From Polaromonas sp. (lineage in GTDB: Bacteria > Pseudomonadota > Gammaproteobacteria > Burkholderiales > Burkholderiaceae_C): 64,000 bases of DNA. The stretch is from assembly GCA_028292745.1 (NCBI GenBank), contig JAQGLT010000002.1:1-64000 (forward strand), read 5' to 3'. Position 1 is the first letter of the stretch, and each line of letters starts with the position of its first letter. A model generated the notes under the pieces. It saw only the letters and a list, made by a program, of their open reading frames with translations, was not told the DNA's origin and did not search any database. The position numbers and the translations under genes were made by a program. This document shows, piece by piece, positions 32,639-61,519 of this stretch.

Positions 32639-32707
32639 CATCAAATCTTAGGCAAATAGGCTGTTTGCGCAATGAAACCGTGCGCCGGCAGCTATCAAAT
32701 CAGGAGC
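32639..32707 (-). repeat. Intergenic 18-N18-TGCGC repeat, copy 1
   Basis: Reverse strand: GCTCCTGATTTGATAGCT-GCCGGCGCACGGTTTCAT-TGCGC-AAACAGCCTATTTGCC...GATTTGATG. Confidence 0.85.
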
Positions 32708-32713
32708 AATTCC

Positions 32714-33238
32714 ATGTTGACCGAAGACGGCAAGCATCTCTACGTCAGCTATGACGAATACCACAGCCTGATTGAAAAACTGGCGATCAAGGTCCACCAG
32801 TCGGGTTGGCAGTTCGACACCATTTTGTGCCTGGCGCGCGGCGGCATGCGCCCCGGCGATATCTTGTCGCGTATTTTTGACAAGCCGCTGGCCATCATGT
32901 CCACCAGTTCCTACCGCGCCGATGCCGGGACGGTGCAGGGCAAGCTGGACATTGCACGCTTCATCACCACGCCCAAGGGCGAAATCGCGGGCAGGGTGCT
33001 GCTTGTGGACGATCTGGCGGACTCTGGCTTGACCCTGAATGCCGTGGTTCACCAGCTCCGCACCAATTTCAAGCCCATCACCGAATTGCGCAGCGCCGTC
33101 ATATGGACCAAGGGGGTTTCGGCTTTTCAGGCGGACTATTCCGTGGAAACGCTGCCGACCAACCCGTGGATTCACCAGCCGTTCGAAAGCTACGACGCCC
33201 TTACGCCCGCGCAATTGATGGACAAGTGGAAAATTTAG
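32714..33238 (+). CDS. Phosphoribosyltransferase
   Basis: PRPP-binding loop VLLVDDLADSGLTL; ATG at 32714 preceded by CAGGAG. Confidence 0.9.
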   Translation: MLTEDGKHLYVSYDEYHSLIEKLAIKVHQSGWQFDTILCLARGGMRPGDILSRIFDKPLAIMSTSSYRADAGTVQGKLDIARFITTPKGEIAGRVLLVDDLADSGLTLNAVVHQLRTNFKPITELRSAVIWTKGVSAFQADYSVETLPTNPWIHQPFESYDALTPAQLMDKWKI

Positions 33239-33304
33239 CCTAAGCGTCTCAGGTCCCGTTACCGGCGTGCCAGAACACGGCCGGTTGCCCGTTAACATGG
33301 CTGG

Positions 33305-34498
33305 ATGAGCGATTTATCCACCCAGCTGATCCACCATCCCTACACGCCGCCGGCCGGTTTCGCTACCGTTCAGCCAGCCGTGCACAAGGCCTCCACCATT
33401 CTGTTCCCCAACGTGGCCGCACTGCGCAGCCGGGACTGGAAACACAAGACCGGCTACACCTACGGCCTGCACGGCACGCCGACAACCTTCACGCTGGAAG
33501 AGCGCATCGCGACGCTGGAAGGCGGGCGCTTCTGCACGCTGGTGCCAAGCGGTCTGGCTGCCGTGGTGCTGGTGGACATGGCCTTGCTGAAAGCGGGCGA
33601 TGAGGTGCTGATTCCTGACAATGCCTATGGCCCGAACAAGGCCTTCGCCCAGGCCGAACTGGCCTCCTGGGGCATTGGCTGCCAGCTCTACGACGCGATG
33701 AATCCGGCCGACCTGGCGGCCAAGCTCAATGTGAAAACCCGTCTTGTCTGGCTGGAAGCGCCCGGCTCCATCACGCTGGAGTTTCCGGACCTGCCGGCGC
33801 TGGCCGCTGCCGTCAGCGCGCATAACGAATCGTCTGCCCAGGCGCATCGCCTGGGCACTGTCACGGCCATCGACAACACCTGGGGCGCGGGCCTGGCATT
33901 CAATGCCTTTGCGCTTGGTGCCGATATTTCGGTGCAGGCGCTGACCAAATACCCGAGCGGCGGTGCGGATGTGCTGATGGGCTCGGTGGTGACGAGGCGG
34001 GAAGACCTCTACCACCTGATGCATTTTTGCCATATGCGCGTGGGCTACGGTGTGAGCGGCAATGATGCGGAACTGGTGCTGCGCGGCCTGGGCAGCATGG
34101 CCTTGCGCTATGCCGCCCAGGACACGGCCGCGCGCCAGCTGGCCGCCTGGCTTCTGGACCAGCCCCAAATCGAAACCGTGCTGCATCCGGCCCTGCCGAA
34201 TTCTCCGGGCCATGCCGAGTGGACGCGCGACTGCAATGGCGCAGCCTGCCTGTTCAGCGCGGTGTTCAAGCCCGAATTCTCTCCCATGCAGATCGACCGC
34301 TTTTGCGACAGCCTGCGGCTTTTCAGGCTGGGCTACAGCTGGGCCGGCCCGATGAGCCTGTGCGTGCCCTATGACATGCCGGCCTTGCGGGTGGCCAAAC
34401 CATGGCCGTACCAAGGCGGCTTGGTGCGGTTTTCGGTCGGCCTGGAGGCGGTGGCCGACCTGCAAGCCGATATTGCCCAGGCACTGGAAAGCCTGTGA
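33305..34498 (+). CDS. metC: Cystathionine beta-lyase / Cys-Met metabolism PLP-dependent enzyme
   Basis: PLP-lysine context SVQALTKYPSGGADVLMGSV, YTYGLHGTPTTFTLEERIATLEGG. Confidence 0.88.
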   Translation: MSDLSTQLIHHPYTPPAGFATVQPAVHKASTILFPNVAALRSRDWKHKTGYTYGLHGTPTTFTLEERIATLEGGRFCTLVPSGLAAVVLVDMALLKAGDEVLIPDNAYGPNKAFAQAELASWGIGCQLYDAMNPADLAAKLNVKTRLVWLEAPGSITLEFPDLPALAAAVSAHNESSAQAHRLGTVTAIDNTWGAGLAFNAFALGADISVQALTKYPSGGADVLMGSVVTRREDLYHLMHFCHMRVGYGVSGNDAELVLRGLGSMALRYAAQDTAARQLAAWLLDQPQIETVLHPALPNSPGHAEWTRDCNGAACLFSAVFKPEFSPMQIDRFCDSLRLFRLGYSWAGPMSLCVPYDMPALRVAKPWPYQGGLVRFSVGLEAVADLQADIAQALESL

Positions 34499-34555
34499 CC
34501 TCGACCTGATGGCAATGCATTACAGTAAGGGTTGATTACTCACGAAAGCTAAGCT

Positions 34556-34744
34556 GTGGCAACTCCCAATTACTCCTACGAAAAGCGCCAGAAAGAGCTT
34601 GCGAAAAAGCGCAAGAAAGAAGACAAGCTCAAGCGCAAGGGCGAAGGCAGGCCTGATGAAGACTCGGCTGAAGATGGCGTGCAAGGCGCCCAGACCGGTG
34701 ACGGCGAACCGACAGGCGTACCGCCTGCCGATGCCGCATCCTGA
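34556..34744 (+). CDS. Small conserved-looking basic hypothetical protein
   Basis: 62 aa GTG-start ORF, NYSYEKRQKELAKKRKKEDKLKRK. Confidence 0.6.
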   Translation: MATPNYSYEKRQKELAKKRKKEDKLKRKGEGRPDEDSAEDGVQGAQTGDGEPTGVPPADAAS

Positions 34745-34766
34745 ATCGGTTTCTGCTTGAAATAGA

Positions 34767-34823
34767 GATAAAAAGCCTTTTACGCAAGACCACCGGGCAT
34801 AAGAAGCTATTAAATTTATAGCT
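34767..34823 (-). repeat. Intergenic 18-N18-TGCGC repeat, copy 2
   Basis: Reverse strand: GCTATAAATTTAATAGCT-TCTTATGCCCGGTGGTCT-TGCGT-AAAAGGCTTTTTATC. Confidence 0.85.
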
Positions 34824-34831
34824 AACCGGTT

Positions 34832-34870
34832 AAAAACCCGACATTTCCTCAGCGGTGATGCCGGGTTTTT
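34832..34870. terminator. Candidate (bidirectional) intrinsic terminator
   Basis: AAAAACCCG (34832-34840) ... CGGGTTTTT (34862-34870) perfect 9-bp arms just beyond the mnmH stop. Confidence 0.6.
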
Positions 34871-34874
34871 TGCT

Positions 34875-35933
34875 TCAAGCCGCCGCCAGCAGGGACGCGG
34901 CCAGTTCGCCCATGGCCTGCGCCGTGCGGTTGCGCGGCATCAGCACCTGCGCCGTTTCATACTGCGCGAAATTGCGCTGCATTGACTGCAGGTAACCCGG
35001 GTCGTAATGCCTGACCAGCAACTCGCGCACCACCGAGGCCACGTCGCCGCTGCGGGCACGGGCCTGCCAGTCCTGCACAGTGGCCTTGCCGCGCGCTTCG
35101 GTCAGGGCTGAAAGGCGTTCGCAGAAAAACTCGATGTCCCTGACGAAAAAATCATAGTCTTCCAGTAGCAGGCCGACCCGTTCATTCTCGGCCAGGTCCA
35201 GTCGCAGGCAGGGGCTGGCCCGCATGGCCGAGATCAGCCCGTCGGGCACCGCCACATTGCCGACCTTCTTGCTCTCGCTCTCAATATAGACCGGCCGCGC
35301 CGGATCAAAGCCGCGCAGGGCCGCCCAGATGTGGCTGTCAAAGGCTTTCTGGCTGGGCTGGGCCACGCCCGGGATCATGCCCAGCACCGAACTGCGGTGA
35401 CGGGCCAGCGCTTCAAGGTCCAGCACCTGCGCGCCTTGCTTGCAAAGCGCCTGCAGCAGCCGTGTCTTGCCCGAGCCGGTAGGCCCGCACACGACCCGGA
35501 AATGGTGCCGCTTGGCCAGCTGCGGCAGGTCGGCCACCAGGGCGGCCCTGAAGGCTTTGTACCCGCCATCGACCAGCGTGACCTTGAAACCGATCTGGTC
35601 CAGCACCAGCGCCAGCGAGCCGCTGCGCTTGCCGCCCCGCCAGCAGTACAGCAGCGGCTGCCATTCCTTGGGCTTGTCGAGCACCTCGCGCTGCAGGTGC
35701 TCGGCGATGTTCTTGGCAACCAGCGCGGCGCCCAGTTTTTTGGCCTCGAACTGGCTGATCTGCTTGTGCCGGGTGCCGACGATTTTTCTCTCATCGTCAT
35801 GCAGGCTGGGCCAGTTCACCGCCCCGGGGAGGCAGTCCTCGGCATATTCGCCCTCGGAGCGGGCATCGATGACGGCGGAGTAGGCGGCGAGCTGCACCAG
35901 GGCTTCCTGGGCGGAGATGCGTTGCAGGCTCAC
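34875..35933 (-). CDS. mnmH: tRNA 2-selenouridine synthase (rhodanese + P-loop)
   Basis: YCWRGGKRSGSLA rhodanese Cys loop, CGPTGSGKTRLLQAL P-loop. Confidence 0.93.
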   Translation of the reverse strand: MSLQRISAQEALVQLAAYSAVIDARSEGEYAEDCLPGAVNWPSLHDDERKIVGTRHKQISQFEAKKLGAALVAKNIAEHLQREVLDKPKEWQPLLYCWRGGKRSGSLALVLDQIGFKVTLVDGGYKAFRAALVADLPQLAKRHHFRVVCGPTGSGKTRLLQALCKQGAQVLDLEALARHRSSVLGMIPGVAQPSQKAFDSHIWAALRGFDPARPVYIESESKKVGNVAVPDGLISAMRASPCLRLDLAENERVGLLLEDYDFFVRDIEFFCERLSALTEARGKATVQDWQARARSGDVASVVRELLVRHYDPGYLQSMQRNFAQYETAQVLMPRNRTAQAMGELAASLLAAA

Positions 35934-36653
35934 GGGATGATTTTCTTCAGTTCGGGCCAGACATTGGCCAGCATCCTGGCTTGAGATTGCTCGTTGGGGT
36001 GGATACGGTCGGCCTGGAAATTGGCCACGGCGTTCGCCTCATCGGCAACGCCTTTGAGGAAAAAAGGCACCAGCGCTACTTTTTCAGCCTGTGCGACCTT
36101 GGGAAACAGGCCGGAAAAGGTCGTGCCGTAAGCGCCGCCATAGTTGGGTGGCACCTGCATGCCGACCAGCAGCACCTTGGCGCCCGATTTTTTCGACGCC
36201 TGGGTCATCGCCGTCAGGTTTTGTTCGGTCATGCCCAGTGGCAAGCCCCGCAGCGCATCGTTGCCGCCCAGCTCGATCACCACCACAGTGGGCCTGTGCT
36301 TGGCCAGCAGCCCCGGCAGGCGCGAACGCCCGCCGGAAGTGGTGTCGCCGCTGACACTGGCATTGACCACCCGCGCCACGCGGTTTTCGCTGGTCAGTTG
36401 TTTTTCAAGCAGCGGCACCCAGCCGGTGCCGCGCCTGAGGCCATATTCGGCGCTCAACGAATCGCCGACGATCAGGATGGTGGGCGGCTGCGATGGCACC
36501 TTGGCTTGCGCCTGCGTCTGGGCCCCTGCGGGCGTTGCCAGCGCACCGGCCATCAGCAGCGCCGCAAAGGGCTTGGCCCAGCCGTTTCGCGCTGCCGGGC
36601 CAGGCTTGCTACAGTGGGCTTCGACGGATTTAAAGTTTTTTGATAGGGATGAC

Positions 36654-36655
<2 letters not shown>
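35930..36655 (-). CDS. tesA: TesA-like GDSL arylesterase / lysophospholipase
   Basis: ILIVGDSLSAEYGL, ELGGNDALRG, HPNEQSQARMLANVWP; signal-like N-terminus. Confidence 0.9.
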
Positions 36656-37394
<739 letters not shown>

Positions 37395-37451
37395 GAAAAA
37401 ATCGACGTTTGCGCATGCTGCTATTGCGGAGTGTGCTATGAATTAGATAGC
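37395..37451 (-). repeat. Intergenic 18-N18-TGCGC repeat, copy 3
   Basis: Reverse strand: GCTATCTAATTCATAGCA-CACTCCGCAATAGCAGCA-TGCGC-AAACGTCGATTTTTT. Confidence 0.85.
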
Positions 37452-37532
37452 ATAAAGACGTGTGGGCGTTCGGGGTGGCTGCCGGTGGCGGGATTGCGGG
37501 ATGCCGGAAAATCCAGCAGCGATAATTGCCCG

Positions 37533-38330
37533 ATGTCTTCATCCCCCAAAGTTCTTTTCGGTTTCCATGCCGTTGGTGTTCGCCTCAAAACCGCGCCCAA
37601 ATCGGTGCTGGAGGTATTTTTCGACGTTTCCCGCCGCGATGCGCGCATGCGCCAGTTCACCGACCGCGTCCGTGAGGCTGGCGTCCGGCTGATTGAGTCC
37701 GACGGGCTGCGCTTGGCCAAGATGTGCGGCAGCCATGGCCACCAGGGCGTGGTGGCGCGTGTCGATGCGGTGGCGCAGGTCACGTCGCTGGATGAATTGC
37801 TTGAGCAGCTCGAAGCCGCGGGCACCGGCCAACCCCTGCTGCTGGTACTCGACGGCGTGACCGACCCGCACAATCTGGGTGCCTGCCTTCGGGTGGCGGA
37901 CGGGGCTGGTGCGCAGGCGGTGATTGCCCCCAAGGACCATGCCGCGGGCATCAATGCCACGGTCGCCAAGGTGGCCAGCGGCGCGGCGGAAACTGTGCCG
38001 TACTTCATGGTGACCAACCTGGCACGCACGCTGGGGGAACTCAAGGAGCGCAACATCTGGTGCATCGGCACCAGCGACGACGCCCCTAAAACAATTTACG
38101 ACGTGGACCTGACCGGCCCGGTGGCGTTGATTCTTGGGGCCGAGGGGGAGGGCATGCGCCAGCTTACTCGCAAGACCTGCGATGAACTGGTCAGCATTCC
38201 GATGGCTGGGGCGGTCGAAAGCCTGAATGTGTCGGTGGCCAGCGGGGTCTGCCTTTACGAGGCGTTGCGCCAGCGTCTGCGGAGCGGGCAGGCTGCCCAA
38301 ACTGAGGCTGTAGTCTCGCTGAACACGTAA
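37533..38330 (+). CDS. rlmB: 23S rRNA (guanosine-2'-O-)-methyltransferase RlmB
   Basis: SpoU motifs VLDGVTDPHNLGACLRVADGAG, LILGAEGEGM, VESLNVSVASGVCLYE. Confidence 0.93.
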   Translation: MSSSPKVLFGFHAVGVRLKTAPKSVLEVFFDVSRRDARMRQFTDRVREAGVRLIESDGLRLAKMCGSHGHQGVVARVDAVAQVTSLDELLEQLEAAGTGQPLLLVLDGVTDPHNLGACLRVADGAGAQAVIAPKDHAAGINATVAKVASGAAETVPYFMVTNLARTLGELKERNIWCIGTSDDAPKTIYDVDLTGPVALILGAEGEGMRQLTRKTCDELVSIPMAGAVESLNVSVASGVCLYEALRQRLRSGQAAQTEAVVSLNT

Positions 38331-38456
38331 AAATTGGTAAATGTTACATTTGGCAAATAAAGATACATATTGTTTTTAAAGGGAAATCACTAATCGTTTT
38401 TTGGTATTTGTGCACTGTACACTGCAAAGCACTTAAAACTAAAAGGGGATTTTTAC

Positions 38457-39182
38457 ATGTATTCAGCAGACTTTTCCAGGCGCAGTTTTTTTCGCCAAGG
38501 CTGCTGCACGGCCGCCGGCCTGGCCGGTTTTGCACCTCTTCTCGCGGCGCATGCGGCAGCTGGCAAAAAGACGGATCTGACGCCCGATCAGGCACTGGAA
38601 AAGTTGAAAAAAGGCAACAGTGACTTTCTGAACGACAAGCCCGCGCTTTTGACTTTGCGCAACAGTGACCGGCGCATGGAAATTGCCCGGAGTCAAGTGC
38701 CTTTCGCGGTGCTTCTAGGGTGCTCGGACAGCCGCGTGCCGCCTGAAGTGCTGTTCAACACGGGGCTGGGCGAGCTGTTTATTGTGCGCAATGCCGGCAA
38801 TACGATCGACACGGTGGCGCTGGGCAGCCTTGAGTACGCCATTCAGGTGCTCGGGGTGCCGCTGGTGCTGGTGCTGGGCCACGAACGCTGCGGTGCAGTG
38901 GATGCTGCGGTGTCTGTCGTTGAAAAGAACGCGGTTTACCCAGGCAGCATTGGCAGGATGGTGGAGCCGATTATTCCCGCTGTTCTCAAGGCTCGTGCGA
39001 GCGGAAATTACAAGGGCGAAGAGTTGCTCGACATGTCAGTGCGCGAAAATGTAAGGCGCACCGTCGAGCGCCTTCAAAATTCAGAGCCTGGGGTGCAAGA
39101 GCCCATGCGCGCCGGCAAGCTGAAAGTGGTTGGCGCTCGGTATGACCTGGACAACGGAAAAGTGGACTTTTTCATGACCTGA
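38457..39182 (+). CDS. Beta-class carbonic anhydrase with Tat signal
   Basis: Zn ligands CSDSRVPPE and GHERCGAVDAA; N-terminal SRRSFFRQ twin-arginine motif. Confidence 0.92.
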   Translation: MYSADFSRRSFFRQGCCTAAGLAGFAPLLAAHAAAGKKTDLTPDQALEKLKKGNSDFLNDKPALLTLRNSDRRMEIARSQVPFAVLLGCSDSRVPPEVLFNTGLGELFIVRNAGNTIDTVALGSLEYAIQVLGVPLVLVLGHERCGAVDAAVSVVEKNAVYPGSIGRMVEPIIPAVLKARASGNYKGEELLDMSVRENVRRTVERLQNSEPGVQEPMRAGKLKVVGARYDLDNGKVDFFMT

Positions 39183-39199
39183 TGCAGGTTCTGGGCTGG

Positions 39200-39784
39200 T
39201 CATATCAAGCCGTACCAGCCCAGCAGCGCGCCAGCTCCCAGCAGCCACAGCAGGTGGATCCGGGTGCGCCACACGAGCAGGGCCGCGGTGGCTGTGAGCA
39301 GCCAGACCGGCCAGTCCTTGAGCGAATTGCCATTGGCGCTGGCCAGAATCCAGCCCGTGGCAATCAGAAGCGCCACCACGATAGGCGCCATGCCCTGCTT
39401 GAAGGCACGCACCGCCAGCAGCTCGCGGTTGCGGTGCCCCCACTGGGCAGCTGCATAAGTCAATACCGTGCTGGGCAACAAGATACCGAGCAACGACAAG
39501 AAAACGCCAAGCAATCCCGTAAGCGCACCCCCGGCGTTGAGGCCGACATTCCAGCCCAGCAGGGCAACAAACAAGACGTTCGGCCCGGGGGCCGCCTGGG
39601 CAATGGCAATCGAGGCGTTGAACTGCGCATCCGTCAGCCAATGCTGCTGCTCCACCAAAAAGCGGTGCATGTCGGGCGCAGTGGTGATGGCGCCGCCTAT
39701 CGAGAGCAGCGACAGTGTCAAGTAGTGAAAAAACAGGCTGAACCAGTCGTGCAGCCCGAACACCAGCGTGGCCGACTCGTTCAT
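39200..39784 (-). CDS. chrA: Chromate transporter, second half-size subunit
   Basis: MNESATLVFGLHDWFSLFFHYLTLSLLSIGGAITTAPDMHRFLV..., AQAAPGPNVLFVALLGW; ATGA overlap with preceding gene. Confidence 0.85.
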   Translation of the reverse strand: MNESATLVFGLHDWFSLFFHYLTLSLLSIGGAITTAPDMHRFLVEQQHWLTDAQFNASIAIAQAAPGPNVLFVALLGWNVGLNAGGALTGLLGVFLSLLGILLPSTVLTYAAAQWGHRNRELLAVRAFKQGMAPIVVALLIATGWILASANGNSLKDWPVWLLTATAALLVWRTRIHLLWLLGAGALLGWYGLI

Positions 39785-40362
39785 GGCTTGCGCTTGAGCC
39801 GAAGATAAGCCAGCACGCAGGCCAGGCTTCCCAGGCCGGCCAGGACATAAAACAGCGGCAGGCGCAGCAGGGCGACAGTGATAAAGCCCACCACCCCGAA
39901 GGCCACGCACAGGCCCAGTCCGAGCACGTTGTTCAGCAGGCCGCCGAAGAGTTTCAGCCCGGTCGCCGCGATCAGCCCGGCTGCCACCGCGCCCATGCCG
40001 CGCAGCGCACCAGGCATGCCAGGATGGCCAGCTACCTGGGCATGGGCCAGCGCCAGCAGCAGCACAAGAATCAGCGGCACTGTCAGCATGCCGGCCAAGG
40101 CGGCCATGGCGCCCTTCAAACCGAAATACCGCGCGCCAATCATCAGCGACAGGTTGATCACGTTCGGGCCGGGCATGATCTGCGCCACGGCCCATTCCTC
40201 GATGAACTCCTCGCGGGTCATCCAGCGCTTTTTTTCGACCATCTCGCGCTGCACCACCGCCAGCACGCCACCGAACCCCTGCAAGGCTAGAAAAGTGAAG
40301 GACAGAAACAGGTCGGTAAGCGAGCGGGGTTGCGCAAGTTCTTGCGCCGGCTGGGAATTCAT
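39781..40362 (-). CDS. chrA: Chromate transporter, first half-size subunit
   Basis: FLALQGFGGVLAVVQREMVEKKRWMTREEFIEEWAVAQIMPGPNVINLSLMIG. Confidence 0.88.
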   Translation of the reverse strand: MNSQPAQELAQPRSLTDLFLSFTFLALQGFGGVLAVVQREMVEKKRWMTREEFIEEWAVAQIMPGPNVINLSLMIGARYFGLKGAMAALAGMLTVPLILVLLLALAHAQVAGHPGMPGALRGMGAVAAGLIAATGLKLFGGLLNNVLGLGLCVAFGVVGFITVALLRLPLFYVLAGLGSLACVLAYLRLKRKP

Positions 40363-40427
40363 GGGCCAATTATCACCGTTGACATTGAAATCAGGACAGT
40401 AACCAGCAGAACAGTAAAAAATCAGTT

Positions 40428-40487
40428 GCTATTAAAATAATAGCTCAAAGTCGAATTGGCACATGCGCAATTGGCATAAAACATCAC
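40428..40487 (+). repeat. Intergenic 18-N18-TGCGC repeat, copy 4
   Basis: GCTATTAAAATAATAGCT-CAAAGTCGAATTGGCACA-TGCGC-AATTGGCATAAAACATC. Confidence 0.8.
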
Positions 40488-40716
40488 TAAACCGAAGTCT
40501 GTGGAACTTGTTTGCCACCTCGTCAACGCCATTCACGACACCGGCCATCGCGCACCCTTTTCGCTGTCGACAGGAGGTGGGTAGCCAGTCTGCGGTTCTC
40601 GCGCCGATGCCGGTGCCCACGAGCAGTAGGCGGGTGTGTCGCTGCGGGACTTGAATAGTGCAATGAGGCACCAAGCTAGGTTACAACCGCCCCTGCATCC
40701 AACCGGAGATAAAGCC

Positions 40717-41385
40717 ATGCCGCCCGCCCTCAAAATTGATTTCGTTTCTGACATTTCATGTCCCTGGTGCGCCATTGGGCTCAATTCGCTGGACTTGGCG
40801 CTTGCACGCGTGGCGGACGATATCGGCGTCGAGTTGCATTTCCAGCCCTTCGAACTGAATCCGAAAATGGCGCCCGAAGGCCAGGAAATTACTGCACACA
40901 TCACCGAAAAGTACGGCATCACGCCTGCGCAAGCCGATGCCAATCGGGAAAACATTCGGCTGCGTGGTGAAGCTGTCGGGTTTACCTTCAGCAAAGCGGA
41001 CCAGCCTGGCGGCGGGCGCAGCCGCATCTACAACACCTTTGATGCGCATCGCCTGCTGCACTGGGCCGGGCTGCAAGGTGCTGCGCAACAAAAGGCTTTA
41101 AAGCAGGCCCTGTTTCAAGCCTACTTTACCGATGGCCACAGTCCGGCGTCACACAACGTGCTCGCCCGCGTTGCGGGAGAGGTCGGTCTGGACGTGGAGC
41201 AGGCCCGCGAAGTGCTGGCGTCCGATGCCTATGCCGACGCGGTTCGGGAGCGGGAATCGTTTTATACCCAGCAGGGCATTCATTCCGTGCCGGCCGTCAT
41301 CATCAATGACCGCCATCTGATTTCCGGTGGGCAGCCGGTCGAGGTGTTCGAGCAGGCGCTGCGGCAGATTGCAGCAGCGGGTTAA
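40717..41385 (+). CDS. DsbA-family (FrnE-like) oxidoreductase
   Basis: FVSDISCPWCAIG redox motif, GIHSVPAVIINDRHLISGGQPVEVFEQAL. Confidence 0.92.
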   Translation: MPPALKIDFVSDISCPWCAIGLNSLDLALARVADDIGVELHFQPFELNPKMAPEGQEITAHITEKYGITPAQADANRENIRLRGEAVGFTFSKADQPGGGRSRIYNTFDAHRLLHWAGLQGAAQQKALKQALFQAYFTDGHSPASHNVLARVAGEVGLDVEQAREVLASDAYADAVRERESFYTQQGIHSVPAVIINDRHLISGGQPVEVFEQALRQIAAAG

Positions 41386-41434
41386 CGGGCACTTGCACGC
41401 CGTTTAGAGCGTTTTATTCGGGCCCCAGGGCCAA

Positions 41435-43571: not shown

Positions 43572-43802
43572 AAGCCGTCAGATAGCGGGCACGGCCGGAT
43601 GACGGTGCGTTGAATTGATCGCGGCACCTGCTGGTGCCGCAGCCGGGGCAGTTATTGATCGACTGCTTTTTTTGGCAGAGATTACTTGAAAACCCTGGTG
43701 CGACCGGCGGTGGGCGTTAGCCCCCTGCTGGCCCCCATCCCAGCCTTGCCCAGCGGGGAAGAAGAAAATGCCTGGGCAAGCCAGTGACCTGGCGCAGTTT
43801 AT

Positions 43803-43860
43803 GATCAAAAAGGGCTCTAGCGCAGGCAGCACCTGCGCAAACAGCTATGAATTCAGGAGC
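43803..43860 (-). repeat. Intergenic 18-N18-TGCGC repeat, copy 5
   Basis: Reverse strand: GCTCCTGAATTCATAGCT-GTTTGCGCAGGTGCTGCC-TGCGC-TAGAGCCCTTTTTGATC. Confidence 0.9.
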
Positions 43861-44052
43861 GGCAAGGCTGCCCGGCTTTGCTGTTGCCCGCTACGGTGAA
43901 ACCGCTCTAAAAGCCACGATTGACGGGTTTTGAACCCGGGTGTGCTTATTCCATCTGTAAATCAAATAATTATTTTGTCGGCTTTCCGTGGCCGCGCCAG
44001 GGCACTGTCTGCGCCTCGCCTTTGCGGACTCGCTTGGTTGAAAAAGGACTTG

Positions 44053-44743: not shown

Positions 44744-44800
44744 GCTATTGAAATCATAGCTTCATACACAATACCTATCTGCGCTAGAGGCTTATTTGAT
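44744..44800 (+). repeat. Intergenic 18-N18-TGCGC repeat, copy 6
   Basis: GCTATTGAAATCATAGCT-TCATACACAATACCTATC-TGCGC-TAGAGGCTTATTTGAT. Confidence 0.9.
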
Positions 44801-44835
44801 GCAAAAACTTGCTGGCGGGTCAAAACGCAGGCGTG

Positions 44836-47538
44836 CTAGGCAGAAGGCTTGGCTGGCTTGAATCCAAGCTTTTTCATCGGCGCCGCCAGGCTTTTTCGGC
44901 AGGCCTCGTAGTCGTGCCAGGGCGTGTTGCCAATGGCCAGCCGGGGCGCCAGATGGGGGGCGGTCCAGTGCGCGCCGCTGGTGAGCAGGGCCAGCTCATC
45001 CCATGCCAGAGGCACCGACACACCCAGGCCGGGCCGCGCCCGAACCGACCAGGCCGTCACCGTCGTGGCGCCGAAGCCATTGCGCAGGTAATCAACGAAT
45101 ATCTTGCCCACCCGGTTCTGGGCACCGCTTTTGGCTGCAAAGCGCTGCGGCAACACGCTGGCCAGATGGTCGACGATGGCATGCGAGAAATCCTTGACCG
45201 TTTCAAAGCCGTGGGCGCGCTTGAGGGGCACCACCACATGCAGGCCCTTGCCGCCGCTGGTTTTTAGAAATCCGACCAACCCGAGCTCTTCAAGCAGCGT
45301 GCGCACCAGCTGGGCCGCTTCCTGCATTTCCGGCCATGGCACGCCTTCCCCCGGGTCCAGGTCAAAAGTCATTCGATCGGGCTTGTGAATGGCCCGCCTG
45401 GTGGCATTCCAGGTATGGAATTCGATCGCATTGAACTGGGCCGCACCCAGCAGCGCCTGTGCCGAGGGGATTTCCAGCAGCGGCCCGTGTCCGGGGTCCA
45501 AGCTGGGGTCGAGCAGCGTGATTCCGGGAATCGACAGGGCTTCGGCATGTTTCTGGAAAAACAGCGTGCCCGCAAGACCGCCCGGCGCTCGCAGCAGGGC
45601 CACCGGACGGTTCTTGAGGTGGGGCAGCATCAGCGGCGCCACCGCTGCATAGTGTTCGATCAGCTGGAGCTTGGTGAATCCGGTCGTGCTGTCAATGACG
45701 CGTTCCCCGTGCGTCACCCGCAGCGACTTCATGGCCGGCGCTGCTGCGGTCGCAGCCGTCTTGTTGCTGGGCGGCAGGCGCGGGTCGGATGCGGGCATGG
45801 CTTTACCTTGGGTGGCTTCTTCTAACGGAACGGGAATTTCCTGGGTGATCAGGCGGGCTGGCTTGTCGATGCGCAAGCCCTGAAAGACCGCGTGGCGGAT
45901 ATGGCCCTTGTGCGTCCATTCGCCAAATGCCACCTCGGCCAGCAGTTCCGGCCTGACCCATTGCCCCTTGATCGACGTTGGCAGCGTGCCGAACGGGCTG
46001 CGCTCCTGGTGGAGTTTGGACAGGCGGGCCTTCAGGGCGCGCAGGGTCGTGTTGTCAAAGCCGGTGCCTACATTGCCGGCATAGCGCAGCGAGCCATCGG
46101 CCTCGTGCACGCCCAGGAGCAAAGCGCCCAGCCCGGTGCGCGTCCCCTTGGGCTCGGTGTAGCCCCCAATCACGAATTCCTGGCGCAGCTGGGTCTTGAG
46201 CTTGATCCAGTCGGCCGAGCGTCCGGACGCATAAAAAGAATCCTTGCGCTTGCCGATTACACCCTCCAGCCCCACTTCCTGGGCGGACGCCAGCAGGTCC
46301 TGCGGGGTTTCGTCGAACGCCTCGCTGAACCGGATGCCCGGTTGCGGCTGGCGCAGCAGCAACTCGCGCAGAATGCCGCGCCGCTCGGTCAGGTGGGTAC
46401 GGCGCAGGTCCTGCCCGTCGTAAAAAGGAATATCAAACACGTAGTAGGTGATGCTGGCCGTGCTGGCGCTGTCGAACGCGTTTTGCAGCCCGCCGAAGTC
46501 AGGCAGGCCCTTGCTGTTCATCACCACGATCTCACCGTCCAGCCACGCCGAGCCGATGCCCAGCCGTGCGATGGCCTGGACCAGCTTGGGAAGCTTGCCG
46601 CTCCAGTCGTTGCCCGCCCGGGTCATGCAGCGCACCGATGCGCCGTCGATGCGGGTCAGCAGGCGGTAGCCATCGAACTTGATCTCATAAACCCAGTGCT
46701 GCGGATCGGCGGGCACCTGGTCCACCAGCGTTGCCAGCTGCGGCGACAAGGTGTCCGGCAGCGCGGTTTTGATCGCCGCGCCGGGCATGGCCGCATCCGC
46801 AGCGTTTTCTGCCTTTTTCTTTTTTCGTTCTGGTGCCGATGTCGGTGTCGGTGTCGGTGGGGCAACGGCTTTTTCGGCGCCGCTGACAGGGGGCTTACCG
46901 CGGCGTTCCTGCCGGGGCGCGGGCCGCCTTGCCTTGGCGGTTGCCGGCTCTGCCAGCGCGGCCTTCTCCGGCAGCGGCCGGCCGGTCAGCACGCTGCCGG
47001 GCAGGGCCTCGGTGATGTCGAATGCTTCTTCTGCCTGGGCATGCGCGTCTTTTTCCTTGATCAGCAGCCACGGCGCTTGGCCTTGCGCCCCTTTGCCGTG
47101 CATTCGCACCAGTGCCCAGCCGCCCGTGAGCTTTTCACCCTGGAGTTCAAATTTGAGCTTGCCGCTTTCCAGGCCGGCCACCGGATCGCCCACGGGCAGC
47201 CACACGCCGCGGTCCCAGACGATCACATCGCCGGAGCCATATTGGTTCGGCGGGATCGTGCCTTCAAAAGCGGCATAGGCCACTGGATGGTCTTCCACCT
47301 GCACCGCCATGCGTTTGACCCTCGGGTCCAGGCTTGGCCCCTTGGGAACCGCCCAGCTTTTCAGGGTGCCCTGCAGTTCCAGGCGGAAGTCGTAGTGCAG
47401 GTTGCGCGCGGCATGCTTTTGGACGACGAATGCCAGCGCCTGGGCTGCAGCCGATGGCAGGCTGCCTTGCGCTGGCTCGGGGGTCTGGCTGAAGTCGCGT
47501 TTTGCCTTGTAGCGCTCCAGCGGGTCGCGGGTAGCCAT
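44836..47538 (-). CDS. ligD: ATP-dependent DNA ligase LigD (phosphoesterase-ligase-polymerase order)
   Basis: N-terminal PE domain (HAARNLHYDFRLELQG), ligase motif YEIKFDGYRLLTRID, C-terminal primase/polymerase (DLDPGEGVPW, KTSGGKGLHVVVPL). Confidence 0.95.
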   Translation of the reverse strand: MATRDPLERYKAKRDFSQTPEPAQGSLPSAAAQALAFVVQKHAARNLHYDFRLELQGTLKSWAVPKGPSLDPRVKRMAVQVEDHPVAYAAFEGTIPPNQYGSGDVIVWDRGVWLPVGDPVAGLESGKLKFELQGEKLTGGWALVRMHGKGAQGQAPWLLIKEKDAHAQAEEAFDITEALPGSVLTGRPLPEKAALAEPATAKARRPAPRQERRGKPPVSGAEKAVAPPTPTPTSAPERKKKKAENAADAAMPGAAIKTALPDTLSPQLATLVDQVPADPQHWVYEIKFDGYRLLTRIDGASVRCMTRAGNDWSGKLPKLVQAIARLGIGSAWLDGEIVVMNSKGLPDFGGLQNAFDSASTASITYYVFDIPFYDGQDLRRTHLTERRGILRELLLRQPQPGIRFSEAFDETPQDLLASAQEVGLEGVIGKRKDSFYASGRSADWIKLKTQLRQEFVIGGYTEPKGTRTGLGALLLGVHEADGSLRYAGNVGTGFDNTTLRALKARLSKLHQERSPFGTLPTSIKGQWVRPELLAEVAFGEWTHKGHIRHAVFQGLRIDKPARLITQEIPVPLEEATQGKAMPASDPRLPPSNKTAATAAAPAMKSLRVTHGERVIDSTTGFTKLQLIEHYAAVAPLMLPHLKNRPVALLRAPGGLAGTLFFQKHAEALSIPGITLLDPSLDPGHGPLLEIPSAQALLGAAQFNAIEFHTWNATRRAIHKPDRMTFDLDPGEGVPWPEMQEAAQLVRTLLEELGLVGFLKTSGGKGLHVVVPLKRAHGFETVKDFSHAIVDHLASVLPQRFAAKSGAQNRVGKIFVDYLRNGFGATTVTAWSVRARPGLGVSVPLAWDELALLTSGAHWTAPHLAPRLAIGNTPWHDYEACRKSLAAPMKKLGFKPAKPSA

Positions 47539-49901: not shown

Positions 49902-50000
49902 AGATTCTGGCGGGATGGCGCCCCGGCCCGGGAGGGCTGTGCCGTTGAACTCCAGAACCTGCCCGGTTCGCTTGCAAGCCCCCGCTTGCCGGCGGGCCGG

Positions 50001-50053: not shown

Positions 50054-50064
50054 AAGGATTTAAG

Positions 50065-52261: not shown

Positions 52262-52263
52262 GC

Positions 52264-52731: not shown

Positions 52732-54067
52732 ACCCCAGCCTGGAGATATCTTGATGAGCCTGCCTGCCTTGCGTTACCAGTCCGGTTTCGGCAATGAATT
52801 CGCGAGCGAAGCGGTCGCTGGCGCCTTGCCCGAGGGGCGCAACAGCCCCCAGCGCGCGCCCCATGACCTGTACACGGAACTGCTGTCGGGAACGGCCTTT
52901 ACCGCGCCCCGCGCCGAGAACCGCCGCACCTGGCTGTACCGGCGCCAGCCGTCGGCGGTCACCGGCGGCTACCATCCTTACGCCCAGCCTTTCTGGACCA
53001 CCGGGGCCGCCGGTGGGCTGGCCGTCCCGCCGGACCCGCTGCGGTGGCATCCGTTCGAGATTCCGGACGAGCCGCTCGATTTCGTCGACGGCCTGCGCAC
53101 CTTGATGGCCAATGGCGATGCCGACACGCAAACCGGCATGGCCACGCATGTCTACTTGGCCAACCTGTCGATGACGCAGCGCGTCCTGGTCAATGCCGAT
53201 GGCGAAATGCTGCTGGTGCCCCAGCAAGGCCGGCTGGTTGTCACGACCGAGCTGGGCATTCTGGAGCTGACGCCCGGCGAGGTCGGCGTGGTGCCGCGCG
53301 GCATGGCTTTCAGCGTGGCGCTGCTCGACGGGCCTTCCCGGGGCTATGTCTGCGAAAACTACGGCGCGCACTTTCGCCTGCCCGAACTGGGGCCGATCGG
53401 CTCCAACGGCCTGGCCAATGCACGTGATTTCCGCGTCCCGACGGCGGCTTTCGACGAAGCGCCTGCCTCCAGCCTGGGCCATGACATCGTAAAGAAATAC
53501 GGCGGGCGCCTGTGGGTCGCCCGGCAGGCGCACAGCCCTTTCAACGTGGTGGCCTGGCATGGCAACCTGGTGCCCTACAAATACGACACCGCGCATTTCA
53601 TGACCATCGGCTCCATCAGCTACGACCATCCGGACCCGTCGATCTTTACCGTGCTGACCTCGCCTTCTGACACCGCCGGCACGGCCAATTGCGACTTTGT
53701 GATTTTCCCGCCGCGCTGGCTGGTCGCTGAAAACACCTTTCGCCCGCCGTGGTACCACCGCAATCTGATGAGCGAATTCATGGGGCTGGTCCATGGCGAA
53801 TACGATGCCAAGCCCGAGGGCTTCAAGCCCGGCGGCGCGTCGCTGCACAACAGCATGGTGCCGCACGGCCCGGACGCGGAGGCCTATCAAAAGGCCAGCA
53901 CCGCCGAGCTGGCGCCGCACAAGCTGGACAACACGCTGGCGTTCATGTTTGAAAGCCGCTACCGCTTCGTGCCGACCGCCTTTGCGCTGCAAAGCTGGTC
54001 GCTGGACAAGGCTTATGCCAACTGCTGGCAGGGCCTGCAAGACAACTTCAAAGGAACAATGCCATGA
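52724..54067 (+). CDS. hmgA: Homogentisate 1,2-dioxygenase
   Basis: [49 protein letters not shown]. Confidence 0.97.
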
Positions 54068-55392
54068 GTCATGCGCCCGCCCGCCTGGACTTCAGCCACG
54101 ACGCGGCCCTGCGCTCATGGGTGGCGTCAGCCAATACGCCCGAGACTGATTTTCCGATCCAGAATCTGCCGCTGGGCGTGTTCCGCCGTGCAGGCAGCCA
54201 GGAAGCCTTTCGCCCCGGCGTCGCCATTGGCGAGCAGATCGTGGATCTGCCGGCGGCCTGCGCCGCAGGCATTTTTTCCGACGCCGTGGCCGCATCGCTC
54301 GCCGGTGGCGAGCCGGGCCAGCTCAATGCCTTCATGGCGCTGGGCAGCGCGGCCCGGCTGGCGCTGCGCCATGCCCTGAGCGAAAGCCTGAGCGAAGGCA
54401 GTCCACGCCAGGCTGCGCTGCAGTCCGCCCTGGTGGCGCAAGCCAGTGCCGAATACGCGGTGCCGTGCCGCATCGGCGACTACACCGATTTCTATACCGG
54501 CATTCACCATGCCACCGCCGTCGGCAAGCTGTTCCGCCCGGACAATCCGTTGCTGCCTAACTACAAATGGGTGCCGATCGGCTACCACGGCCGCAGCTCG
54601 TCCATCGGCGTGAGCGGCCAGAAGTTTGCGCGCCCCAAGGGGCAGACCAAGGGCCCGAACGAAGAGGTGCCCCAGTTGCGGCCCAGCCACCGGCTGGATT
54701 ACGAACTGGAACTGGGGGTGTTCGTCGGGCAGGGCAATGCGCTCGGAGAACCCATCGCCATCGACCGGGCCGAAGACCATGCCTTTGGCCTGGTGCTGCT
54801 CAACGACTGGTCGGCCCGCGATATTCAGGCGTGGGAGTACCAGCCACTGGGGCCGTTTCTGGCAAAGAATTTTGCCAGCACCATCTCGCCGTGGATCGTG
54901 ACGCTGGAAGCCCTGGCGCCGTTTCGCGCGCCGTTCACCCGCGCGGACGGCGACCCGCAGCCCTTGCCCTATCTGGACTCCGAGGCCAACCGGCGCCAGG
55001 GCAATTTCGATGTTTCGCTTGAAGTGCTGATCCAGACGCAGGCCATGCGAGACGCAGGCCTTGCGTCCCAGCGCCTGTCGCGGTCCAGCTACCGCGACGC
55101 CTACTGGACCGTGGCCCAGATGATCACGCACCATGCGGTCAACGGCTGCAACCTGCAGCCCGGCGATTTGCTGGGTTCGGGCACCCAGTCAGGCGCGCGA
55201 GCCGACCAGGCCGGCTCGCTGCTGGAGCTGACGGCAGGGGGTAAAAACGCACTGACGCTGGCCAACGGCGAGACACGCACCTTCTTGCAGGACGGCGATG
55301 CCGTCACCTTGCGCGGTTACTGCGAGCGCAGCGGCTTCAGGCGCATCGGCTTCGGCGACTGCCAGGGCCAGGTGCTTGCCGCCAAGGCTTGA
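54064..55392 (+). CDS. fahA: Fumarylacetoacetase
   Basis: [47 protein letters not shown] overlap with hmgA. Confidence 0.97.
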
Positions 55393-55600
55393 CCCATTGC
55401 GCTGACGCGGCCCCTGCAGCCGCGCCGAGATCCCCGGCCAGGGGCGTCCGGCGCTCGCTGCGCGCCGCTCTACCTCCGGCTGCAAGCCCCTCGGGTGTAC
55501 AGACTGCGGGTAAACGCCTAAAATCATGGGTTAACCCAAAATCGCAAGACAGGTATCGCCACAAGGCAGTGCTCGCGGTTTTCACCGAAGAATCGCACCC

Positions 55601-57991
<2,391 letters not shown>

Positions 57992-58040
57992 AGCGGTTTC
58001 ACCCTGGCAGGCAGGCAATAGCCAAGCCGGGTAGATTTTT

Positions 58041-58100
58041 GCTCCTGAATTCATAGCTGCTAGCGCAGGATCTGCCTGCGCTAGAGCCCGTTTTGGTCAA
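58041..58100 (+). repeat. Intergenic 18-N18-TGCGC repeat, copy 7 (with perfect hairpin)
   Basis: GCTCCTGAATTCATAGCT-GCTAGCGCAGGATCTGCC-TGCGC-TAGAGCCCGTTTTGGTC; CTAGCGCAGG/CCTGCGCTAG 10-bp arms. Confidence 0.92.
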
Positions 58101-58327
58101 AAGTTGTGCCGTTTCCCCGGTATTTCTCCTTCCCCGCTGGGGGGAGGAGCCGGGCGGCCCAGGTGCGCGGCGGTTGCCAATCAGGGTGATTTCGCTCTCG
58201 CATGGAAAGCGAAGCCGATAAGGTGATCGTTTGATTTGGAAATGGAATTAGGTGCCAAATCAGCCTGCAGCGCTTGCCCGCCGTGCTATGTCAGCTATCA
58301 ATTCGATACCTCAACCGTTATCAGACT

Positions 58328-59326
58328 TCAGACCTTGTAAGCGCCCAGCACCTGTGCGGGAAACAACTCGTCCACCGCCAGCCTGCGCTGGCACACGCCT
58401 TGCTCGAAGCCGAATTTCAGGAACGCGTCCAGCGTGGCCCGGTTGATGTTGCCGCCGTGCTCGGCCGCGATGCCGTAGGGGTAGAAATCGTCGCCGAAGA
58501 TGCCGCGCAGGCGCTCCGTGTAATTGGACAGCCAGGCCATCGGCGCATGCGAGGCGGTGACGTCCGACAGGCGTTCCATCGAGCGGTTCTTGGCTTCCAA
58601 AAACGTCTTGTACAGGTTCATGGCCACCCACGGGTGCGCGTCGAGCACCGGCTGCCTGAGCACCAGCGAATGCATGATGGGAAAGATGTTCGTGTCCTTG
58701 AAGTACTGCTCCTCCGCTGCCTGCGAATCAGGCATGAGCCGCACAATGCCCCGGCCTGTTCCGGTGGGTGGGCGAGCCGACATCACCGCGTCCAGCTCGC
58801 CGTTCAGCAGCATCTCGTTCAGGCTGTGGTCGGGCACGTTGCGGTAGCGGATGCCGTCGGGCAGATGGAGCTTGACCTTTTCCTTGCGACCGGGCTCGTT
58901 GACGCCGGCCTGGATCCACTCGATGTCGGCCAGTTTCAGGCCCACATAGTCGCTGAGGTAGCCGCGCCCGTAAATCCCGGCGGTCTGCGCCCATTCGGGA
59001 ATGCCGATGCGCTTGCCTTTGAGGTCTTCGGGCCGCTTGACCGCACCGCCTTCGCGCACGTAGAACATCGAATGGCGAAACGCCCGCGAGATAAAGACTG
59101 GCAGCGCCATGATGCTGGTGTCGCCCTGCGCCCGCAGGGCAATGTACTTGCCCATCGACATTTCAGAGATGTCCCATTCGCGGTGCAGCGTGAAACGGTA
59201 AAAAATTTCCTCGATGGGCAGGTCCAGCGTGCGCAGCTGCACGCCTTCGACGTGCAAGGTGCCGTCGGTGACGTCGCGCGTATGGTCATAGGGCCCAAGG
59301 GCCAGCGTGAGCGGAAGGGGGTTCAT
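58328..59326 (-). CDS. 4,5-dihydroxyphthalate decarboxylase-like / PBP2-fold protein
   Basis: LTLALGPYDHTRDVTDGTLHVEGVQL, EDLKGKRIGIPEWAQTAGIYGRGYLSDYVG. Confidence 0.8.
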   Translation of the reverse strand: MNPLPLTLALGPYDHTRDVTDGTLHVEGVQLRTLDLPIEEIFYRFTLHREWDISEMSMGKYIALRAQGDTSIMALPVFISRAFRHSMFYVREGGAVKRPEDLKGKRIGIPEWAQTAGIYGRGYLSDYVGLKLADIEWIQAGVNEPGRKEKVKLHLPDGIRYRNVPDHSLNEMLLNGELDAVMSARPPTGTGRGIVRLMPDSQAAEEQYFKDTNIFPIMHSLVLRQPVLDAHPWVAMNLYKTFLEAKNRSMERLSDVTASHAPMAWLSNYTERLRGIFGDDFYPYGIAAEHGGNINRATLDAFLKFGFEQGVCQRRLAVDELFPAQVLGAYKV

Positions 59327-60301
59327 TCATTCAGCCTGGATTTTTGCGGTTTTGATGACGCGGGACCATTTGTCGGATTCGCTCTTGACATAGGCGGCCA
59401 GTTCTTCAGGGGTGCTGTAGACCGCTTCCTGGCCCTGCTTGAACAGCTGTTCGCGGTGCTCAGGGTCCTTGCCCAGCGCGACCATCTCCTTGTTCAGGCG
59501 CGCAATGATGGCCGGTGGCGTGCCTGCGGGCGCGAAAAGGCCGTACCAGGAACTGGCTTCAACGCCCTTGTAACCCAGCTCGACCAGGGTGGGCACATCG
59601 GGCAGGGCCTCGATCCGCTTGGGCGAGGTGACCGCCAGGGCGCGAAGGCGGCCTGCCTTGATGAACGACAGGCTCGACACCACGCCGCCAAACACCATCT
59701 GCGTCTCGCCGGCGATGACGGCGGCGGCTGCCGGGCTGCTCCCCTTGTACGGAATATGCATCATGTCGATGCCGGCCGATATCTTGAACAGTTCGGCCAC
59801 CAGGTGCAGCGGCGAGCCGTTGCCGCCGGAGGCATAGTTCAAGGTGCCCGGTTGGGCCTTGGCCATTGCCACCAGCTCGGGCACGGACTTGGCCGGAAAC
59901 GACGGATTGACGACCAAGATCTGGTAGCCCTGCGCCACCATGCTGACCGGTGCGAAGTCCTTGACCGGGTCGTAGTTCACCTTGCCCAGGTGCGGCGTCA
60001 TTGCCATGTTCGCCACGAAGCCCAGCGTCAGGGTGTAGCCGTCGGGTTTGGCGTGCGCCACCTGCTCGGTGCCGAGGTTGCCGCCGGCGCCGGCCTTGTT
60101 GTCAACGAAAACCTGCTGCCCAAGCGCGGTGGACAGGCGCTGCGCCACGATGCGGCCCAGGGTGTCGTTGCCGCCTCCGGGCGGATAGGGAATGACCAGG
60201 CGGATCGGCTTGGTGGGGTAGTCCTGGGCCAGGCTTGCCGGCGTGTGGGCCAATGCAGCCAGACAGGCCAGAAAGCAAAATGAGCGGGCAAGAAGTTGCA
60301 T
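59327..60301 (-). CDS. Bug-family substrate-binding protein
   Basis: AQDYPTKPIRLVIPYPPGGGNDTLGRIVAQRL, NKAGAGGNLGTEQVAHAKPDGYTL. Confidence 0.93.
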   Translation of the reverse strand: MQLLARSFCFLACLAALAHTPASLAQDYPTKPIRLVIPYPPGGGNDTLGRIVAQRLSTALGQQVFVDNKAGAGGNLGTEQVAHAKPDGYTLTLGFVANMAMTPHLGKVNYDPVKDFAPVSMVAQGYQILVVNPSFPAKSVPELVAMAKAQPGTLNYASGGNGSPLHLVAELFKISAGIDMMHIPYKGSSPAAAAVIAGETQMVFGGVVSSLSFIKAGRLRALAVTSPKRIEALPDVPTLVELGYKGVEASSWYGLFAPAGTPPAIIARLNKEMVALGKDPEHREQLFKQGQEAVYSTPEELAAYVKSESDKWSRVIKTAKIQAE

Positions 60302-60474
60302 GGCGGATTCCTCCGGTGAATACTAGGATGCTAAGTCTGCTAATAATAAGTGGCAAACTTTCGGCTCGTGTACGTAGTTACCCGTTGCCGGTGTGTGTGG
60401 CGCCAGCGTGCAGCGCAATTAAAACCGCCGGAGCAATCAAATTTCACGTTGTGCAGCAGGCGGGCGTGGCCGGG

Positions 60475-61362
60475 TCAAGCCATGGTGTGCAGCGGAATGT
60501 CCTTGTCCAATGCCAGCCTGTCCAGCTCGCTTCGGGTTTGCGTCAGCAGGAAATCGGCGATGCCTTGGCGCGCCGCAAGCGTCAGCAGGTGCCCCGCGTC
60601 GGCAGTCACCATGCCCGCCGCAGCGCACAGCGCGGCGGCAAAGTGCGGCTCCAGCGCGGCAACGGCCACCCGTCCGTCCTTGCAGGCATACACCCGGTAG
60701 CCGGCATGGGCGCCGCCCACCCAGCCTGCGGGCTGCGTCAGGCCCCATTGCCGGGGCAGTGCCAGGTAGGCGGCCGCGTCAGACAGCGCGACTTCAATAA
60801 ACACGCCGCTTCTGTCTGCGTCAGCCGTTCGCTGCCGCAGCGCCGCCTGCAGCACGGCTTCGCTGGCGGCCAGGGAGCCGGCCATGTCGGCATACAGCGT
60901 CGCCGGCAGTTCCATGCCCGGCACCAGGCCGTTGTCGGCCAGGTAGGTCAAGTCGTGGCCGGGTTCTTCTGCCCGCTCGCCCGGGCTGCCGACAATCGCC
61001 ACCTGCGACAAGGCCGGGTACCGCCGGTGCAGCGTGCGCCACGCAATGCCCAGCTTTTCAAAGGCCGAGGGGCGAAAGGAGGTCAGCAGCACATCGGCTG
61101 CCGCCAGTTCGCGGTGCAGCGCGTCCTGTCCCGCCGCTGTTTTCAGGTCCGCCGCCTGCACGTCGATGCCTGCATGCAACTGGCTGTAGGCCACGGGGTT
61201 GTAATGCCCCATCGGGTCGCCACCGGGCGGTTCGAGCTTGCGGCAGCTGGCCCCCATCCGGCGGCAGCGCATCAGCGCCGCCGGGCCGGGCAGGTTGAGT
61301 GCCAGGCTCAGGATGCGCACCCCCAGAAGGGGCTGAAAGGACAGGGCGGATGGAGTGTTCAT
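60475..61362 (-). CDS. CaiB/BaiF-type (class III) CoA-transferase, short form
   Basis: LLGVRILSLALNLPGPAALMRCRRMGASCRKLEPPGGDP, LTSFRPSAFEKLGI, GHDLTYLADNG. Confidence 0.85.
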   Translation of the reverse strand: MNTPSALSFQPLLGVRILSLALNLPGPAALMRCRRMGASCRKLEPPGGDPMGHYNPVAYSQLHAGIDVQAADLKTAAGQDALHRELAAADVLLTSFRPSAFEKLGIAWRTLHRRYPALSQVAIVGSPGERAEEPGHDLTYLADNGLVPGMELPATLYADMAGSLAASEAVLQAALRQRTADADRSGVFIEVALSDAAAYLALPRQWGLTQPAGWVGGAHAGYRVYACKDGRVAVAALEPHFAAALCAAAGMVTADAGHLLTLAARQGIADFLLTQTRSELDRLALDKDIPLHTMA

Positions 61363-61364
61363 TT

Positions 61365-61420
61365 GCTATTGAATTAGTAGCTGGTTAGGCAGAGTAGGTG
61401 TGCGCAAAGGCATGATTTGG
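61365..61420 (+). repeat. Intergenic 18-N18-TGCGC repeat, copy 8
   Basis: GCTATTGAATTAGTAGCT-GGTTAGGCAGAGTAGGTG-TGCGC-AAAGGCATGATTTGG. Confidence 0.85.
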
Positions 61421-61519
61421 CTCACAATTTAACGCAAAACCGGTTGCCGGCCTTCACGGCATGAAAATGCTTGCGGTCTGCAATAACCTGCAGCCGCCCT
61501 CCCATTTCACGGGCCGGGC

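Follow-up and report, generated by a model that had tools for sequence, protein, structure and literature searches.

What kind of sequence recurs between the genes of a Polaromonas chromosome in both orientations and with a fixed internal spacing? This question is raised by a 64,000-nucleotide stretch of Polaromonas sp. (GenBank assembly GCA_028292745.1, contig JAQGLT010000002.1, positions 1 to 64,000; hereafter the window), in which an initial annotation had described eight copies of an intergenic repeat, each consisting of an 18-nucleotide box, exactly 18 variable nucleotides (N18) and TGCGC. Here we extend the repeat to a 66-bp element. Our analysis suggests, with a probability of roughly 0.4, that it is a chromosomal double-stranded DNA site that is read by a sequence-specific protein and evolves in place, most like a DNA uptake signal. 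Since its positions are shared with relatives, including one within a DNA-repair gene, it looks more like an address label on DNA that a protein would read, perhaps a 'self' tag for DNA uptake, than like a stray repeat.

All eight copies were recovered at their original positions, four per orientation, with the box, the exact spacer and TGCGC as described and TGCGT in the copy at 34767 only; three further copies had been missed, so that the window holds 11. A strict pattern that allowed spacers of 14–22 nucleotides matched the 3.78-Mb genome 94 times, always with a spacer of 18, and a reversed control pattern gave no match. Our genome statistics come from searches and from 781,600 sampled bases (21% of the genome), in which a 70-column profile (score ≥ 14) identified 148 copies, 63 on the plus strand and 85 on the minus strand. 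Shuffled sequences, the control proposed in the initial annotation, contained none, even at a score of 8. This density of 189 copies per Mb extrapolates to about 700 copies in the whole genome. The fixed spacing held throughout this genome but not elsewhere, as variants of 14–16 nucleotides occur in other genera. In the genomes G060, G064 and G113 the spacer is shortened between the GCGC half-sites, and these forms are possible dialects.

The element consensus, numbered from the G of GCT as column 0, is tTGCTATtaAATTaATAGCTgcttGCGCAngcncngcnTGCGCtAgAGGCctaTTTgatnnaAAAat. The box, N18 and TGCGC thus proved to be part of a longer unit of about 66 bp that includes GGC and two A-tracts; it is dispersed, has a GC content of 45% and carries approximately 50 bits of information under the profile model. 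Two dyads are conserved, GCTAT..ATAGC and GCGC..GCGC, together with three tracts made almost exclusively of A and T (columns 7–10, 50–53 and 61–64), the last two of which are one helical turn apart. All three tracts avoid the TpA step. At columns 51–52, the 144 own copies have TT 112 times, AA 25 times, AT four times and TA never, against an expectation of 19.8, and TA is also absent from 238 copies from other genomes, where 26.5 were expected. A/T runs that lack TpA are A-tracts, in which the minor groove is narrow.

The palindromic boxes could be read as RNA or as DNA. The N18/TGCGC hairpin considered in the initial annotation was examined for compensatory changes, and none was found at any pair. 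Mutual information among the 148 copies lay almost entirely between neighbouring bases, pairing at both palindromes equalled the expectation for independent columns (144 own copies and 238 distinct copies from other genomes), and predicted folding was weak, with a mean z of about −0.75. Because pairing matches independent columns and folding is weak, the palindromes are best seen as half-sites of double-stranded DNA that would be read independently. The half-site at columns 22–27 and the reverse complement of columns 35–40 agree in their most frequent hexamers (GCGCAG, GCGCTT, GCGCAT and GCGCAA), and the two GCGC half-sites vary independently in both sets of copies. With covariation, mutual information and folding all negative, a hairpin or RNA element was rejected, and no Rfam match reached its gathering score in window positions 30000–64000. 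These data also bear on the idea that the copies are bidirectional transcription terminators or mRNA 3′-end hairpins. Their palindromic boxes, their enrichment near 3′ ends and between convergent genes, and the persistence of the copy after ygiQ despite a changed next gene would fit a terminator. However, neither the 144 nor the 238 copies show compensatory covariation, folding is weak, and the T-tract lies some 10 nucleotides past the second dyad and is replaced by an A-tract in approximately 17% of copies. Moreover, 25% of copies lie within open reading frames (ORFs), for example in mutS and dnaX, and both orientations are found within tandem genes, which together make this explanation improbable.

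We then compared orthologous sites, using regions that were fetched through the der gene, independently of the elements. In 16 of 18 genomes (six genera), the purA–hpt copy kept its place and orientation, although two of the 16 are weak. The yfgM–bamB copy has the same orientation in ten genomes of two genera (nine besides the window genome), and so does the copy after ygiQ in nine relatives, in which the next gene differs. In a protein tree, the element-free genome G013 branches among element-positive lineages, which implies either loss in the G013 lineage or repeated gain at the same sites.

Contrary to the initial statement that no copy lies inside a gene, 36 of 144 copies fell within ORFs, including intact mutS, dnaX, a KefB-like transporter gene, pcnB and moeA, and the window copy at 37385 overlaps the end of an ORF. 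These counts are approximate because they rely on crude gene calls from a caller that under-calls; for mutS, dnaX and some others, Pfam served as a check. Each of the ten element-positive genomes that were examined, which span four genera, had the mutS copy, and the protein carries no insertion there; five element-negative relatives and two other families lacked the copy. All ten positives have the Leu codon CTA at this site, a rare codon that makes up 1.4% of the Leu codons of the window genome; it is not kept in element-negative relatives. Within the site window, conserved residues had a codon identity of 0.82 in the positives (gene mean 0.67) and of 0.44 in the negatives (gene mean 0.58). 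These codon data in positives versus negatives point to a constraint that acts on the DNA, and only in genomes that bear the family. Seven genomes retain the KefB-like copy, with protein length nearly unchanged. As a separate observation, the hisZ coding sequences of L177, L179, L181, L184, L186 and L193 contain weak element-like matches (13–31 bits) at one place; these are absent from the window genome and could be nascent or decaying sites.

Across the sampled genome, the number of copies per kb differed with gene arrangement: intergenic regions of convergent pairs had the most (32 in 23.5 kb), those of tandem pairs fewer (63 in 79.7 kb) and those of divergent pairs few (9 in 26.7 kb), with ORFs lowest of all. 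Their spacing is more even than random (coefficient of variation 0.80). The element shows a chromosomal bias: in 200 kb sampled from plasmid pPNAP01 of Polaromonas naphthalenivorans we found two copies, against 38 expected at the chromosomal density of the window genome. Both plasmid copies (NC_008757.1, ~186066–187500; L251:36066 and 37421) lie in a BREX-2 defence island between pglX and pglW. A single consensus query found no match in 50,697 phage records, and viral contigs yielded one element match. The suggestion that similar sequences occur between genes of Comamonadaceae was borne out: of 140 genera of the family that were sampled, 53 gave matches to model R1, which gave none in 16 further families of Burkholderiales. 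Named genera among the matches listed include Polaromonas, Rhodoferax, Acidovorax, Paracidovorax, Diaphorobacter and Curvibacter. The distribution is bimodal and mostly all-or-none, with genomes having either very many matches or few to none. An earlier conclusion from the strict-pattern survey, that most relatives lack the element, was rejected when the profile model showed it to be an artefact of sensitivity.

Considering that hundreds of dispersed copies might reflect transposition, we looked for signs of mobility. Homology to the flanks of another copy was seen in 12 of 136 copies, ten of them belonging to a class marked by a GCTCC box (class A), and in none of the other 124. Class A copies have extended homology and imperfect terminal inverted repeats (TIRs). 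In the window, this longer repeat occupies 57992–58196 and ~43793–43915 and starts TAGAGCGGYTTCACCC..., and class A looks like a recent miniature inverted-repeat transposable element (MITE) that carries the core element; a MITE is reportedly described in the genome paper of Polaromonas JS666. The GCTCC subtype of the initial annotation (copies at 32639, 43803 and 58041) holds for the last two copies, which form one recent MITE-borne subclass, and not for the first, in which GCTCC is the Shine–Dalgarno sequence of hpt. For the remaining copies, nearest-neighbour identity was 0.686 compared with 0.673 in simulations under a column-plus-neighbour model, which indicates a near absence of copying history and supports the original view that the dispersed element is not a product of recent duplication. 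A search of flanks and empty sites found no clean empty site or target duplication and one possible 7-bp repeat at L128, in intergenic DNA that is strongly diverged. A few intergenic sites are 45–60 bp shorter in element-free relatives, and the ygiQ linker, which was examined for insertion, is hypervariable across relatives.

A link to a REP-associated tyrosine transposase (RAYT), which the initial annotation had raised with reference to repetitive extragenic palindromic (REP) sequences, did not materialize. The sole Y1 (RAYT-like) transposase gene of the genome (G000 C69:3913-4617 on the minus strand; L175:3910-4617) is unlinked to the element, and its downstream flank contains different repeats, GGGGTCAGATTCC-like or of GGGGACA type. 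It is usually single-copy and is 61–79% identical in nearly all same-genus genomes, whether these have more than 100 elements or none, and it is also present in other families; for these reasons it looks domesticated. Although REP sequences and bacterial interspersed mosaic elements (BIMEs) with their RAYTs are likewise hundreds of short extragenic palindromic elements with a convergent bias, membership in this group was rejected: the arms of our element have no pairing constraint and no hairpin covariation, intragenic copies are conserved in place across genera, and the RAYT is present regardless of the element and is flanked by another repeat. Class A resembles MITEs of the Correia/NEMIS class in its imperfect TIRs. 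The great majority of copies, in contrast, are core-only, without TIRs or shared flanks, and MITE membership of the whole element was rejected because shared flanks are limited to 12 of 136 copies and it was in class A that imperfect TIRs were seen. It could still be that the copies are a non-autonomous mobile element of the MITE/REP class, long resident, whose core is slowly decaying. The class A flanks and TIRs and the few shorter sites in element-free relatives favour this. The lack of flank homology in 124/136 copies, the intragenic copies without insertions (mutS in particular had already weakened the idea), the almost complete lack of family-tree signal, the unlinked RAYT and the lack of clean target duplications argue against it, as do the A-tracts, in which A and T replace only each other and TpA is avoided, a pattern that is not decay. 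We consider this origin distinctly unlikely.

Together, these facts call for a double-stranded DNA site with a trans-acting reader, whose copies evolve where they stand and disappear all together, and uptake signals fit them best. The uptake signal sequences (USS) of Pasteurellaceae and the DNA uptake sequences (DUS) of Neisseriaceae are likewise present in high copy, in both orientations, between and within genes; they evolve in place and are conserved across a family in dialects. Among known classes of site, the element, which is also spread evenly over the chromosome and has disappeared entirely from some lineages, behaves most like them. USS change by point mutation, have not been inserted as elements and prefer AT-tracts that are rigid and bent, adjacent to a GCGG core (PMC7811141), a combination of GC core and rigid AT-tracts similar to that of the element. 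In Verminephrobacter eiseniae, a member of the Comamonadaceae, natural transformation has been described and competition data suggest sequence-specific uptake, with no signal named (PMC4212676). Under this model, a sequence-specific protein machinery would read the element as double-stranded DNA and sense the shape of its A-tracts. Binding to both dyads (GCGC and GCTAT) and to A-tracts that are rigid and bent would be the task of an uptake receptor, such as a DNA-binding protein associated with a pilus; DNA from close kin would then be taken up preferentially, and its recombination would maintain the sites. Most copies would owe their origin, persistence and disappearance to substitutions at the site itself, under selection or molecular drive, and not to transposition. 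More specifically, and more tentatively, the 66-bp architecture of two dyads and three A-tracts may be a family-wide Comamonadaceae uptake signal that would explain the suggested selective transformation of Verminephrobacter. Such a signal would to our knowledge be the first outside Pasteurellaceae and Neisseriaceae.

Several observations weigh against an uptake signal. With 66 bp and approximately 50 bits, the element, built from two dyads and three A-tracts, is longer than any USS or DUS (~10–32 bp); it is sparser, with about one copy per 5 kb against about one per 1 kb for these signals, as in H. influenzae; and it leans more strongly than they do towards intergenic DNA and convergent genes. 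Scores are bimodal with few weak intermediates, whereas gradual evolution in place predicts otherwise. Because class A spreads in the manner of a MITE, insertion accounts for part of the copies, and it may also account for gains in intergenic DNA. When four mutS genes, one per genus, were compared, the excess conservation was modest, with 115 of 845 windows equally high, and the KefB-like copy showed no excess synonymous conservation. ComEC was found in 58 of 60 genomes searched, including 32 of 34 element-positive ones (the two misses are incomplete metagenome-assembled genomes). However, it is equally present in element-negative genomes and thus does not discriminate, so that this result is compatible with uptake without favouring it. 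The uptake receptor itself is still hypothetical, and the uptake role is our interpretation.

The unusual length, the lower density, the strong gene-end bias and the bimodal scores keep a serious rival in play, in which the element is a docking site at gene ends, either for a topoisomerase or for a protein that organises the nucleoid or chromosome, and is kept by ordinary selection. A double-stranded site with A-tracts and independent half-sites would suit such a protein, as would the enrichment at convergent over divergent gene pairs, the even spacing, the near absence from the plasmid and a wholesale loss in some lineages that looks like the loss of a trans factor; placement at gene ends is also a feature of MatP-type and REP/BIME sites. 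This explanation would, however, need appreciable selection on each of ~700 sites, including the mutS copy kept across genera, we found no candidate protein, and we know of no chromosome organiser with so many 66-bp sites. We therefore rate it as unlikely, although ahead of every other rival to an uptake signal. An uptake signal would make the Comamonadaceae a third bacterial family in which self-DNA is told apart by its sequence; the recognition code would be different and testable, and gene flow among Acidovorax, Polaromonas and Rhodoferax could be predicted. If the sites serve the nucleoid, they would instead form an exceptionally numerous group of chromosome-organising sites that are long, conserved and sequence-specific. 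In both cases, the selected non-coding signal within mutS, together with wholesale loss in sister lineages, offers a natural comparison for finding the reader protein.

Parts of the element have been seen before. A motif-discovery paper from 2017 lists ATAGCT(N)22CAAAAG from Polaromonas naphthalenivorans (125 copies) and GCTTAT(N)5AAGCG from Acidovorax ebreus (114 copies), which are 81% and 94% intergenic and have a convergent location in 34 of 101 and 44 of 107 intergenic copies, respectively; they appear there as separate potential novel motifs without a function (PMC5217627). Judged by spacing and letters, the former appears to correspond to columns 12–17/40–45 and the latter to columns 24–29/35–39, so that what was an account of two unrelated short pairs is extended here to the full element and its taxonomic range. 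The beta-proteobacterial repeat element (BRE) is also a short repeat of Betaproteobacteria, including Polaromonas, but in Bordetella it is ~69% GC, ~90 bp long and often tandem (PMC3110155), and this description sets it apart from the element. The literature searched, which was mostly open-access, contained no full description, name or function of the element.

Some copies have been put to local use. At window positions 32690–32713, the box of the purA–hpt copy provides the AGGAG Shine–Dalgarno sequence of hpt in most element-bearing genomes, a case of a dispersed element exapted for ribosome binding. A general Shine–Dalgarno role of the GCTCC box was rejected, as it is true for hpt and not in general (Fisher p = 1). 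Such exaptation is also what speaks for regarding the element as a conglomerate of several transcription-factor sites whose function differs by copy; a single rigid architecture at ~700 places, in both orientations and depleted at divergent promoters, makes that idea very hard to credit.

Table 1 Copies of the 66-bp element and the associated MITE-like repeat in the window
Feature	Position	Strand	Evidence and remarks
Element copy, absent from the initial annotation	14802..14868	-	Score 57; same position and orientation in G019, G024, G014 (weak) and G004
Element copy, absent from the initial annotation; yfgM–bamB junction	23288..23354	-	Score 53
Element copy between purA and hpt	32641..32707	-	Score 58; box carries AGGAGC Shine–Dalgarno sequence of hpt
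Element copy in convergent intergenic region, TGCGT variant	34756..34822	-	Pattern and profile
Element copy overlapping the 3′ end of the ORF that ends at 37394	37385..37451	-	Profile
Element copy between divergent genes	40428..40494	+	Pattern and profile
Class A (GCTCC) copy within longer dispersed repeat	43794..43860	-	Flank alignment; left flank to ~43915
Element copy on the 3′ side of ligD (44836-47538, -)	44744..44810	+	Score 74
Class A MITE-like repeat bearing a core copy	57992..58196		Imperfect TIRs 57992-58013 / 58175-58196 (22 nt, 73% complementary)
Class A copy in MITE-like repeat, 3′ side of ygiQ	58041..58107	+	Score 73
Element copy, absent from the initial annotation; downstream of ygiQ	58244..58310	-	Score 47
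Element copy between co-oriented genes 60475-61362 and 61520-63106 (both -)	61365..61431	+	Score 58

For the first copy in Table 1, which overlaps the longest ORF of an rluB-like gene in its 5′ part, a position upstream of the true start is probable.

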